Positions 1-11,617 of a DNA stretch of 11,617 nt are shown here, piece by piece; positions within the stretch are counted from its first letter, which is position 1, and every line of letters starts with the position of its first letter. The stretch spans positions 1-11,617 of the forward strand of contig JAGHSU010000127.1 in assembly GCA_018065685.1 (NCBI GenBank), in the 5' to 3' direction. The notes under the pieces are model-generated. The model was not told the origin of the DNA. It made no database searches and saw only the letters and a program-made list of their open reading frames with translations. Made by a program: the position numbers and the translations under genes. Source of the stretch: Candidatus Methanocorpusculum equi (GTDB taxonomy: Archaea > Halobacteriota > Methanomicrobia > Methanomicrobiales > Methanocorpusculaceae).

Positions 1-51
1 TGGATGCGATTCAGAATCAGATAAATACTGAACTAATTTCGGAATACTACA
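1..51 (+). repeat. Left copy of a 51-bp inverted repeat
   Basis: Base i pairs with base 11600-i over i = 1-51, with 49 of 51 matching; the mismatches are at 32 and 43. The repeat contains an 11-bp near-perfect palindrome, GATTC-A-GAATC, at 8-18, and a TATA-like GATAAATACT at 20-29. It lies 53 bp before dapA. The match ends sharply at base 51. It may continue to the left, because the window begins inside it. Its function is unknown; it could be the end of a dispersed repeat or a shared upstream regulatory module. Confidence 0.85.
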
Positions 52-2140: not shown

Positions 2141-3763
2141 ATGCCACTTCCCAATAAGAGAAACATGCTCATACAGCTGCTTAATATTGCAGGTATAGGG
2201 CCTATTGTAGGAGTTGCCCTTGGAATACTGTTTGGCCCGATTGTCTTTATTATCATGCCAATCGGAAATGTTCTCGGCGGCGCAATTCATGATTATTTTT
2301 CAGGCATGATTTCTCTCAGGAATAACGGGAAAGATTTGCCGCTGCTGATTTCAAAATTTCTTGGAAAAAAGGTAACCTGGATATTTTCTCTCTTTCTCAT
2401 CGCCGCTATATTACTGGTAGTGGCGACGTTTGTTAATATTCCGGCGAATTTTATTGCAGAAATGATTCCTCTCGGATCATCCGTGTTCGTGGTTGCTGTC
2501 ATTTGTATTTTTCTCTACTATATCATATCATCAATCGCTCCGATTGATAAAATAATAGGCAGGATATACCCGTTTATGGGAGTACTGATTCTGATAGTGA
2601 CAGGGGTTGTTGCTGTTGTCCTCATGGCAACCCACGCTGGAGACATCCCGGATATCCCATTGACAGTTGACGGATTTTTGGGGGCGTGGAATGCCCATCC
2701 GACCGGACAGCCGCTGATACCTATGCTCTTTGTAACAATTGCCTGTGGAATTCTCTCCGGATTCCATGCAACCCAGAGTCCGATTGTGGCACGTACGCTT
2801 ACCTCGGAACACGCCGGAAGAAGGGTGTTTTACGGGATGATGATTGTTGAAGGGCTGATTGGTATGGTCTGGGCGGCAGCAGCATCCGTATTCTACGTCG
2901 CAAACACGGAAGTACTAACCGCAAACTTATCAGGAACAACCGTTATTTATGAGACTCTTGAATATCTTCTGCCTGTCCCGCTGATTTTCCTGTCTGTAGT
3001 TGCATTTATTTTTCTCTCAGTCACCTCCGGAGACACAGCACTTCGGGTACTTCGGACGTCAACCGCAACCCAACTAAATATCCCGCAGAATAAACCGATA
3101 AAGCGCGTTCTCCTTCTTCTCCCCTTCATTGGGGTAGTTACGCTGCTTCTTTTCTGGCCAAACCTGTCAGGCAACGGATTTGCCATTCTCTGGAACTATT
3201 TCTCATGGTTTAATCAGGTCATTGCCTGCTTCGCACTTCTGACGATTACCGTCTACCTTGCATCAAAAAAGAAGATATGGATTATATCAGCAGTCCCTGC
3301 AGCATGTATTATTTTTGTCTGCGTAAGTTACATCACATGGATAAGTCCGGAACATCTTGCAGGAGCCCCTGTCGGATTCGGGCTGCCGCTTGAAGTTTCA
3401 TATATTATTGCCGCAGTGTTTGCAATTGGTCTCACGGTCCTCGCTGTTCTGCGGGGAAGAGCACTATCCAGATGGAAAAGTTTCTCCGCTGACACTCAGC
3501 CTGTCTATCCACCGGCAGAAAAAACAGTGAGTGAACACATTGTTTTACTCCGTTTTTCCAGCTTCTTTTTTGCGAACCTCAGACCACTTTTAATATTCTC
3601 AGAAGATCCAGGGGGCTTTCAGCAAACAGCCGCGGACGCACCTCGTTTTCATGCCTGTCCCCGTATTTTGCATGAATTGCTGCCATTCCAACCGCAGACG
3701 CCGGTTCAATGTCGCGGCGCATTGAGTCTCCGACATAGGCCGCCTCATACGGTTTACAGTTGA
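2141..3763 (+). CDS. cstA: Carbon starvation protein A-like peptide transporter (body)
   Basis: Integral membrane transporter of the CstA family, which takes up peptides (or pyruvate in some bacteria). Family hallmarks are visible: LLNIAGIGPIVG near 13-24 of this open frame, AIHDYFSGMISLRNNG at about 48-63, SGFHATQSPIVART at 206-219 and SVTSGDTALRVLR at 293-305. Many hydrophobic helices run to about residue 435. The native start is at 2010, before a frameshift. The last ~80 residues, after PPAEK, are low in family character. They read through T-tracts and the antisense of the HAD gene. With one A fewer in the A6 run at 3519-3524 the protein would end as PAEKQ with a TGA at 3528-3530, just before a T-rich terminator, and would total about 506 residues. 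The gene is therefore damaged or mis-sequenced at both ends. Confidence 0.88.
   Translation: MPLPNKRNMLIQLLNIAGIGPIVGVALGILFGPIVFIIMPIGNVLGGAIHDYFSGMISLRNNGKDLPLLISKFLGKKVTWIFSLFLIAAILLVVATFVNIPANFIAEMIPLGSSVFVVAVICIFLYYIISSIAPIDKIIGRIYPFMGVLILIVTGVVAVVLMATHAGDIPDIPLTVDGFLGAWNAHPTGQPLIPMLFVTIACGILSGFHATQSPIVARTLTSEHAGRRVFYGMMIVEGLIGMVWAAAASVFYVANTEVLTANLSGTTVIYETLEYLLPVPLIFLSVVAFIFLSVTSGDTALRVLRTSTATQLNIPQNKPIKRVLLLLPFIGVVTLLLFWPNLSGNGFAILWNYFSWFNQVIACFALLTITVYLASKKKIWIISAVPAACIIFVCVSYITWISPEHLAGAPVGFGLPLEVSYIIAAVFAIGLTVLAVLRGRALSRWKSFSADTQPVYPPAEKTVSEHIVLLRFSSFFFANLRPLLIFSEDPGGFQQTAADAPRFHACPRILHELLPFQPQTPVQCRGALSLRHRPPHTVYS
3543..3571 (+). terminator. T-tract terminator of cstA
   Basis: Three T runs (4, 5 and 6 long) within 29 bases lie just past the proposed native cstA stop at 3528-3530 and before the convergent HAD stop at 3579. 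Such a signal inside the currently open cstA frame supports the earlier end of the gene. Confidence 0.5.
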
Positions 3764-4250
3764 GAAGGTCTAAGGCACATTCAAAGGGTGCGTGATGCGG
3801 CTTTTTATATCCTGTGGTATCATACCCCACACACACATCAAAAAATTCAGAAAGCCCGGTTTTTTCCAGCCGCTGGTTGGCGGCATAGGTGTAGGCATCC
3901 GTTACCACAGCAAGCCTGTATCCGCGTTTTTTCAGAAGAGAAAGCGTTGTAGGGATACCTGTGTAAGGAGTGAGAGTGTTCATTTTCGCTTCATCGTAAG
4001 CTGCTGCGGCCTTAAAGTACGCCTCAATCGAAAAACACTCATGTATCTCCATGAACTCCTGCAGATTCATGTGGTCTTCGATTGAGTACCTGCCGCGGAA
4101 GTAGTACCCGTAAAGCTCCTCGGCAGTTCCTTTTCCAAGAAATGACACAGCGGCTTCACATCCTGCCTTCATGCATGAGTATAAATCAAAGAGGGTGTTA
4201 TCCATGTCAAAAATAACGGCCTTGAAGGAAGATGATAAAATCGTCTGCAT
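3579..4250 (-). CDS. HAD-superfamily phosphatase, subfamily IA
   Basis: A 223-residue cytoplasmic hydrolase, probably acting on a small phosphorylated metabolite. The four HAD motifs are present: DMDNT with nucleophile Asp15 and acid/base Asp17; Thr117 in VVTDAY; the lysine of YKKPHH (about 149-150); and GDSMRRD at 174-180 with acidic residues for Mg2+. A helical cap domain lies between motifs I and II, as in phosphoglycolate phosphatase-like and haloacid dehalogenase-like members. The substrate cannot be told. The start ATG shares one base with the stop of the upstream nuclease gene (TAATG), so it is translationally coupled. It converges on cstA with about 50 bp between stops if cstA ends at 3530. 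Confidence 0.9.
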   Translation of the reverse strand: MQTILSSSFKAVIFDMDNTLFDLYSCMKAGCEAAVSFLGKGTAEELYGYYFRGRYSIEDHMNLQEFMEIHECFSIEAYFKAAAAYDEAKMNTLTPYTGIPTTLSLLKKRGYRLAVVTDAYTYAANQRLEKTGLSEFFDVCVGYDTTGYKKPHHAPFECALDLLNCKPYEAAYVGDSMRRDIEPASAVGMAAIHAKYGDRHENEVRPRLFAESPLDLLRILKVV

Positions 4251-7697: not shown

Positions 7698-8192
7698 TTA
7701 CTTCAGCATCTGCTTCAGGAACTGACCGGTATAACTTTTTTTCACCCGTGCCACCTCCTCAGGTGTCCCCTTCGCGATAATCTGCCCTCCGGCACTTCCC
7801 CCTTCCGGCCCTAAGTCCAGGATATAATCCGCCGACTTAATCACATCCAGATTGTGCTCAATGACAATGACCGTGTTTCCCTTTTCAACCAGACTGTCAA
7901 GAACGCCGATTAACTTCTTCACATCATGGAAATGCAGACCGGTTGTCGGCTCATCAAGGATGTAGACGGTTTTTCCGCCGGAGCGTTTCGCAAGCTCGCG
8001 GGTAAGTTTAATCCGCTGCGCCTCGCCTCCGGAAAGGGTGGTCGAACTCTGCCCGAGTTTGATGTAGCCAAGACCTACGTCCGCTAATGTCTGCAGTTTT
8101 GCCGTCACATTCGGATGAGCTGAGAAAAGCTCAAGCGCCTCATCCACACTCATATTCAGAACATCCGAGATGGACTTCCCCTTAAACCTCAC
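7698..8192 (-). CDS. uvrA: UvrA C-terminal fragment (second ATPase half)
   Basis: This is the end of excinuclease subunit A. It holds the second ABC signature LSGGEAQR, Walker [14 protein letters not shown], and the terminal [25 protein letters not shown] typical of UvrA. It is in the same frame as the N-terminal part (8328-10502) but is separated from it by the stop-riddled zinc-finger segment. The GTG at 8190-8192 is only the first possible start after the last stop and corresponds to a Val inside the normal protein ([10 protein letters not shown]). There is no promoter or ribosome site to suggest independent translation. The ending KQMLK is normal for the family, so the 3' end itself is intact. 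Confidence 0.9.
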
Positions 8193-8327
8193 CTCGAGCG
8201 TCTCCGCATTGTAGCGTGTTCCTTTGCACTCCTAACACTACACATACACATCACGGAGCAAGTTCATCTAAATATACATCACACCGTCTCAGCAACAGGC
8301 CTCGCACCCCCCTCCATTTACGTTGAA
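8193..8327 (-). other. Degenerate segment encoding the UvrA C-terminal zinc finger
   Basis: Read in the uvrA frame, this segment has stops at 8289-8291 (TGA), 8268-8270, 8238-8240 and 8232-8234 (TAG), after a TAA at 8328-8330. Between them it still reads FNVNGGGCEAC, DGVMYI, DVYV and [14 protein letters not shown]. This matches the usual F-N-V-x-G-G-x-C-E-A-C ... Y-V-x-C-x-x-C-K-G-x-R-Y-N-x-E-T-L-E-V block with no length change. The four zinc cysteines (codons at 8304, 8295, 8235 and 8226) keep the C-x2-C-x19-C-x2-C spacing. The damage is therefore clustered substitution, not insertion or deletion. Confidence 0.85.
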
Positions 8328-10502
8328 TTAAACACGCCCGGGACCGTACCCGCGGATCTTTGCCTCTTTCGTTTCCGCAAATATCTTCCTGATGTCATCA
8401 AAGACCTTGGTATATGTCGCAGGATTGGAACGCGGGGTTCTGCCGATTGGTGACTGGTCAATTACAATGACATTTTCAAGTTTGCCGTCAAAGGAAAGGG
8501 ATTTGAAAGCTCCCGGTGTTTCCTTTGACTGATGGAGTTTCTGCCTGAGTGCCTGATACAGCGTATCATAAATCAGCGTGGACTTTCCCGAACCGGAGAC
8601 TCCTGTGACAACCGTCAGCGTCCCGAGCGGAATCTTTGCGGTCACATTCTTCAGATTGTTCTCCGTACAACCGGAGATGGTCAGATATGAATCAGAGCTT
8701 CTGCGGGACGCTGGTACCGGAATCTCATACTCTCCTGAAAGGTACTTTCCGGTGAGTGAGTCTTTTGCTTCGGCAATTTCCTGAGGTGTGCCGGCAGCAG
8801 TGATTTTTCCTCCGTAAATCCCCGCCCCGGGGCCGATATCAATGACATAATCCGCAGCACGGATGGTCTCTTCGTCATGCTCGACCACAATAACCGTATT
8901 CCCGAGGTCACGCAGATGTTTTAAGGTTGCTATCAGTTTCTGGTTATCCCTCTGATGCAGACCGATGGAAGGCTCATCAAGGATGTACAAAACCCCCATC
9001 AGATTTGAACCAATCTGCGTTGCAAGGCGTATACGCTGCGCCTCACCCCCTGAAAGCGACCCGGCACTGCGTGAAAGCGTAAGGTATCCGAGCCCAACCT
9101 CCTGCAGGAAGGTAAGACGCGAATGAATCTCGCGAAGAATTAGACGGGCAATCTCTCCCTCTTTTTCCGTCAGCTTAAGGCTGTCAAAGAACGAGAGGGC
9201 ATCATCAATCGACATGTCTGTTACATCAGCAATGGATTTTCCGGCGATTTTTACCGCAAGCACCGACTCTTTCAGACGCTTTCCGTGACATGTAGGGCAG
9301 GGAAGAATCCGCATGAACTTTTCAAGCTCCGCCTTCCGGTAATCAGACTTTGACTCGGAGTGCAGGCGGGCCACCTGCGGAAGGAGCCCCTCCCATGTCC
9401 CGTGATAGGCGAACTCCGCATTCCGCGAACTCTGTTTGAAATGAATCTGTGCATCTCCCGTCCCGTACATCAGCCCGTTGTACTGCTCCCTGGTAAGCTC
9501 CTCAATAGGCGTCATCAGGGTAAACCCGAGATAGTCGCCGACACCTTTCAGATACTGGACGCGGAACCCGTCGAAATAATTTTTATAAGTGGCAACCGCC
9601 CCTTCGGAGATTGAAAGACTCTTATCAGGAATAATCAGATCCGGGTCAAAAATCATCTGGAAGCCGAGACCGTTACAGGTCGGGCACGCCCCGAACGGAC
9701 TGTTGAAGGAAAACATACGCGGCTGCAGCTCCTCAAACGACATGCCGCAGACGGGGCATGCCATCTTTGCAGAGTAGACGGCATCTTTGGTATCTCCGCC
9801 GGATGATACATACACAAGCCCGTCTTCAGCATGTTCCAGCGCTTTTTCCAACGCTTCATTTATTCGGGAACGGTCCGATGCGTCACAGCGGTCGATTACG
9901 ATATCGATGTTGTGCATAATGTAACGTCCGAGTTTTATCTCATCGTCAGTACGGTAAATTTCTCCATCGACACGCACCCTGGTAAAACCGTCCGCGTTTA
10001 AATCGCGGAACAGCTGCTCATACGTTCCTTTCTTCTTTCTGACGACTGGGGCCAGCACAGTCACCATTCCTGAAAAATCCTTCATAACCGCGTCAGCTAT
10101 CTGTGCAGGGCTTCTTGCCTCAATTCTTACATGATGCTTCGGACAGTAGGGCACACCAATGCGGGAGAATAAAAGGCGGAGATAATCATAAATTTCGGTA
10201 ACGGTCCCCACGGTTGAGCGCGGATTCTTCGAAGTGGTCTTTTGTTCAATCGCGATGGAGGGGGAAAGCCCGTCAATAGAATCAACATCAGGCTTTCGCA
10301 TCTGTCCTAAAAACTGTCGCGCATAGGCAGAAAGCGATTCGACATACCGTCTTTGCCCCTCTGCATAAATTGTATCGAACGCGAGAGTGGACTTACCCGA
10401 GCCGGAGACCCCGGTAATTACCGTTAGTTTGTCACGGGGGATGGTCACAGAGATATTCCGGAGATTGTGCTGCCGCGCCCCCTTTACCTCGAGATTTTTC
10501 AT
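8328..10502 (-). CDS. uvrA: Excinuclease ABC subunit A, N-terminal 724 residues (gene interrupted)
   Basis: UvrA is the damage-recognition ATPase of nucleotide excision repair; it dimerises and loads UvrB. Seen here are Walker [10 protein letters not shown] (31-39), the first zinc finger CPVC...CPTC (Cys249, 252, 273, 276), CPTCHGKRL at 402-410, signature LSGGEAQR (483-490), Walker B LYILDEP (505-511) and the second Walker [10 protein letters not shown] (634-642). The frame stops at TAA 8328-8330, just after RGYGPGR, where the family continues FSFNV. The whole locus, 7698-10502, would give 934 residues, the usual length. uvrB and uvrC are not in the window. It lies 31 bp after the TrmB-like gene on the same strand. 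If the stops are real, UvrA lacks its second signature and Walker B and should be inactive. Confidence 0.95.
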
Positions 10503-11548: not shown

Positions 11549-11599
11549 TGTAGTATCCCGAAATTAGCTCAGTATTTATCTGATTCTGAATCGCATCCA
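11549..11599 (-). repeat. Right copy of a 51-bp inverted repeat
   Basis: This is the reverse complement of bases 1-51, with 49 of 51 matching. Like the left copy it lies upstream of an inward-facing gene, here 203 bp before the TrmB-like start, and carries the same palindrome (11582-11592) and GATAAATACT element (11571-11580, minus strand). Eighteen further bases of the window beyond it cannot be compared with the other copy. Confidence 0.85.
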
Positions 11600-11617
11600 T
11601 CACACGCAGCCCAGAAC

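Follow-up and report, generated by a model that had tools for sequence, protein, structure and literature searches.

UvrA acts in nucleotide excision repair, and its solved relatives, such as 2r6f, match residues 3-933 of the intact orthologue encoded by the closest genome in our same-genus set (G024), which served as the nucleotide reference for the patch described here. The gene studied lies in the window, the whole stretch of DNA that was analysed, which is an entire contig (C73) of 11,617 bases in a draft Methanocorpusculum assembly of 170 contigs (1.15 Mb, 71% complete). This uvrA occupies positions 10502-7698 on the minus strand (2805 bases). Outside one short patch the gene matches UvrA everywhere; the difference is that the frame as printed stops after 724 codons, ahead of the C-terminal zinc-finger stretch. 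We consider it very probable that the patch is a consensus-sequence artefact, left by one poor read that bridged a coverage gap in the fragmented assembly, and that the cell probably carries a functional-length, uninterrupted uvrA.

Analysis of the minus-strand frame indicated that the gene consists of three parts. The first 723 codons (8334-10502, minus strand) are conserved, with 98% protein identity to G024. The patch (8234-8333, minus strand) covers the C-terminal zinc-finger stretch and holds five in-frame stops and 12 window-unique bases without any indel. The last part (7698-8233, minus strand) begins with the last patch codon, after which the same frame encodes 177 conserved residues, the first of them ECKG, up to the normal stop. 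Overall the frame is open for 724 codons, is interrupted by the five stops and is open again up to its normal end. The stop codons start at positions 8330 (TAA), 8291 (TGA), 8270, 8240, and 8234 (TAG each), and re-reading the frame gave the same tally of one TAA, one TGA, and three TAG that a preliminary description had reported. Its statements that the length is unchanged and that the four zinc-ligand cysteines are kept were also borne out: the gene is as long as the intact G024 orthologue, with no gap across the patch, and all four cysteine codons are unchanged. The kept cysteines carry no evidential weight, because the three that lie inside the patch survive in 52% of simulated random placements with the same spectrum. 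Two other statements needed adjustment. The patch had been located correctly, and its extent of 8226-8336 was slightly too wide, as the window-unique changes run, first to last, over 100 bases; a single-step origin had been proposed for three of the stops, and in fact all five are one transversion away from the G024 codon. An alternative genetic code or readthrough was considered and set aside, because TAA, TAG, and TGA are all present and further conserved positions are altered too.

Comparison with relatives revealed that the changes are layered on an otherwise ordinary gene. The G024 orthologue has 934 residues with no stop anywhere, and its alignment to the whole of uvrA is gap-free. DNA differences to G024 number 19 in the 106 bases of 8231-8336, against 169 in 2166 in the upstream gene flank and 40 in 533 in the downstream one. 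In 60-base bins the two patch bins show 10 differences each and two adjoining bins at 8691-8810 show 12 each. Outside the patch, the counts per bin in the gene lie between 1 and 12, so that the raw difference density of the patch is not unique. A protein search also found a UvrA protein encoded on a 15,951-base contig (P0002), which is open through the zinc-finger stretch. At the protein level, the only level at which P0002 was compared, 648 of 656 and 175 of 177 residues are identical on the two sides of the patch (99% in both flanks), whereas the window departs from P0002 in 12 of the 34 codons of the patch, compared with 10 of the 833 residues elsewhere (Fisher P 8e-13). Together with the 98% identity to G024 over 723 residues, these values agree with the earlier claim that the flanks are conserved.

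Ordinary pseudogene decay of uvrA would account for five in-frame stops, and the draft carries many insertion-sequence-like repeat ends, as genomes in decay may have. The conservation of the remainder of the gene against P0002 speaks against such decay, as do the absence of indels from uvrA, the intact uvrB and uvrC genes and a set of changes made up of transversions; we rate it as highly improbable. A similar density of changes along uvrA had been named beforehand as the mark of decay, and the rest of the gene lacks changes of this kind.

To define the changes, the window was compared with the 23 same-genus genomes that hold the region. Eleven of the 12 window-unique bases are transversions whichever relative is taken as reference; the remaining one, at 8309, is ambiguous, as it counts as a transition when G024 is the reference and as a transversion against the other 22 genomes. 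The base at 8293 is common to the window and some relatives, and G024 and P0002 agree against it, which suggests that it is likely a derived transversion in the window. The 12 clear changes used below are thus the 11 unique transversions plus 8293, with 8309 left out as ambiguous and 8253 left out as common to some relatives. Synonymous third-position transitions relative to G024 are interspersed in the patch, as in the rest of the gene. Since these lie beneath the extra changes, uvrA was under selection until very recently. The stretch is thus the lineage's own selected uvrA with extra changes layered on top.

The spectrum of the patch is unlike that of natural substitution, with 12 clear transversions, no clear transition and one further ambiguous change. 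Over 30,269 background codons compared with G024, nonsynonymous differences comprised 1196 transitions and 1002 transversions, and synonymous differences 3976 and 1925, respectively. The probability of zero transitions in 12 changes is 8e-5 at the nonsynonymous background share and 0.008 if all substitutions are equally likely. Read on the plus strand, the 11 unique changes are five C to A, two G to C, two T to A, one G to T, and one A to C, and 8293 adds one more G to C, so that A or C is the end base in 11 of the 12. Five stops exceed random placement of the changes (P 0.0027 with the same spectrum, 0.0006 with random transversions), an excess at least partly explained by the patch having been picked for its stops.

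This spectrum was compared with known sources of sequencing error. In two-colour Illumina chemistry, as passages of PMC10415152 and PMC8002175 describe it, A gives signal in both channels, C and T each give signal in a single channel, and G stays dark. Under this code a transversion is a one-channel change and a transition a two-channel change, so that single-channel noise would give only transversions. On the plus-strand reading, 11 of the 12 changes are one-channel gains of signal and one is a loss (P 0.0007 against random transversions, with the code picked post hoc and the orientation uncorrected). A passage of PMC8002175, a large Illumina survey, reports average errors without a clear dye signature, and the dye chemistry therefore stays a suggestion. 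The one loss of signal counts against the artefact, and so would the change at 8309 if it is a transition, since it would then not fit one-channel noise. Crosstalk in four-colour chemistry (C with A, G with T) would account for seven of the 12 changes, and oxidation of the library, which according to a passage of PMC10415152 turns C:G into A:T, would account for six. Bleed-through from the preceding plus-strand base was tried and rejected, as it explains no more than the spectrum does: it fits six of 11 changes (P 0.014 with random transversions, 0.39 with the same spectrum), in a test for which four neighbours, two orientations and two change sets were tried.

A true burst of mutation could also yield this spectrum. 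A heavily damaged stretch of the coding strand might have been copied once by a lesion-bypass polymerase that inserted A or C across from roughly twelve damaged sites, leaving uvrA dead. Both the exclusive transversions and the end bases on the plus strand are what inserting A or C opposite lost bases would produce, and the normal synonymous divergence underneath would make such an event recent. About a dozen lesions would be needed within 100 bases, however, with the DNA clean on both sides, and they would have to affect all four bases; moreover, no second patch was seen in the sampled 130 genes. On balance we hold such an event to be very unlikely.

A broken uvrA could instead have received the patch from a decayed copy through gene conversion or template switching, for which the sharp borders of the tract and the lack of indels would be expected. 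Such a donor or decayed copy should bring transitions too, yet the 12 clear changes include no transition, with one further change ambiguous. The patch is single-copy in its own assembly, from which, at 71% completeness, a donor could be missing; among the 24 other genomes of the genus that were searched for a donor, the best match is 84% identical. In the window and 60 other contigs of the draft, no template of 13-25 bases that covers at least two of the changes recurs, and the search returned one chance match of 12 bases. We consider this origin very unlikely as well. Targeted diversification, for example by a diversity-generating retroelement, would likewise alter a tract of roughly 100 bases by substitution alone. 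The changes nevertheless start from C, G, T, and A, with no single template base on either strand, and the stretch has no second copy in its own assembly. No RVT_1 match was obtained in that assembly (71% complete), in a search whose control was found in three of 14 known genomes, and this explanation is barely credible.

We searched for similar patches in the window and in parts of 80 contigs out of the remaining 169, compared with 40 G024 stretches, a sample of 130 genes and 42,089 codons in which three contigs were cut at 20,000 bases and 33,767 of the draft's own bases read N. When 37,766 overlapping 34-codon windows were ranked by nonsynonymous transversions minus transitions, the patch came first with a score of 12; its lead is narrow, the runner-up scoring 11 in a faster-evolving gene with 81% identity and no stop. 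No second pair of stops within 34 codons was found in these 130 genes. As a single patch was found in the sample, the assembly is not generally poor. The absence of a second patch also weighs slightly against the artefact. Open frames that resume in phase after a short stop-rich gap number 23 in the draft's own sample, the patch included, vs 26 in the G024 sample, and these counts are uninformative about the patch. Thirteen stops lie outside the patch in the sample, and eight of them were inspected: five are at or before gene starts, one falls late in a frame of 122 codons, one results from misalignment and one is in carB. The carB stop (L167:59, contig C27 of the same draft) lies 59 bases from the contig end at a sense codon of G024, with no other stops near it, and may be a further consensus error, here close to where a contig stops.

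Several other features of the contig were recorded. No tRNA or Rfam RNA was detected in the window at default thresholds. The two contig ends (window positions 1-51, minus strand, and 11549-11617, plus strand) are inverted copies of one repeat end. A 69-base query made from this end gave 36 matches in the draft, many of which lie at the ends of contigs, whereas a search of 24 other genomes gave none. Two types of repeat end share a 23-base terminus, and one type bears a frame in which visual inspection suggests a transposase tail (Pfam rve_3, sub-threshold, E 0.19). The repeat has the appearance of an insertion sequence amplified within this lineage. In addition, a CstA-type frame (2141-3763, plus strand) overlaps the minus-strand frame 3579-4250 by 185 bases; the true end of the CstA-type frame may lie further upstream or may have been altered.

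The consensus artefact is favoured because a transversion-only, strand-biased spectrum coincides with a span the size of a read: the 100 bases of the patch correspond to about one read length, and the flanks are clean. In addition, the normal synonymous divergence, the intact near-identical relative, the intact uvrB and uvrC, the lack of a donor and the fragmentation of the assembly all appear to support it. The preliminary description had named three possible causes, namely mutagenesis confined to the locus, a tract left by gene conversion or repair, and poor assembly consensus; the last of these is the best supported, and the evidence lends no support to local mutagenesis or gene conversion. 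The patch probably arose where coverage of about 100 bases was otherwise thin or absent and a single short read of poor quality, or alternatively the poor middle of one merged read pair, spanned the gap. The miscalls would have entered the contig since no better read competed, while the ends of the read matched the clean flanks. In this course of events we infer the thin local coverage, the origin from one read and the imaging chemistry. Some of the changes could also stem from damage to the library molecule, oxidation for instance. A passage of PMC8021871 describes that MEGAHIT, for example, removes single-copy k-mers yet rescues some.

If the patch is such an artefact, it advises caution, as one bad bridge makes a conserved repair gene seem dead in a public draft genome. 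Its signature would be usable without reads: transversions only, a bias to one strand, a read-sized span, and normal synonymous divergence below. If the patch were real, it would represent a mutation cluster of extreme density that formed in one event, within a gene that itself serves to clear damage from DNA. A literature search for such patches in draft genomes returned no paper on the subject, as judged by title.

The patch resembles the variable repeat of a diversity-generating retroelement in its substitution-only variation over about 100 bases, and differs from it in that no adenine specificity, template copy or reverse transcriptase match was found in the assembly. The likeness to a thin-coverage consensus error of short-read metagenome assembly is limited in that the patch is known from the assembled sequence only, with no second example in the sampled part of the draft. 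Within that limit the two agree in consisting of substitutions only, in a read-sized span and in clean flanks, and further in the normal divergence underneath and in the intact copy carried by a near-identical relative.
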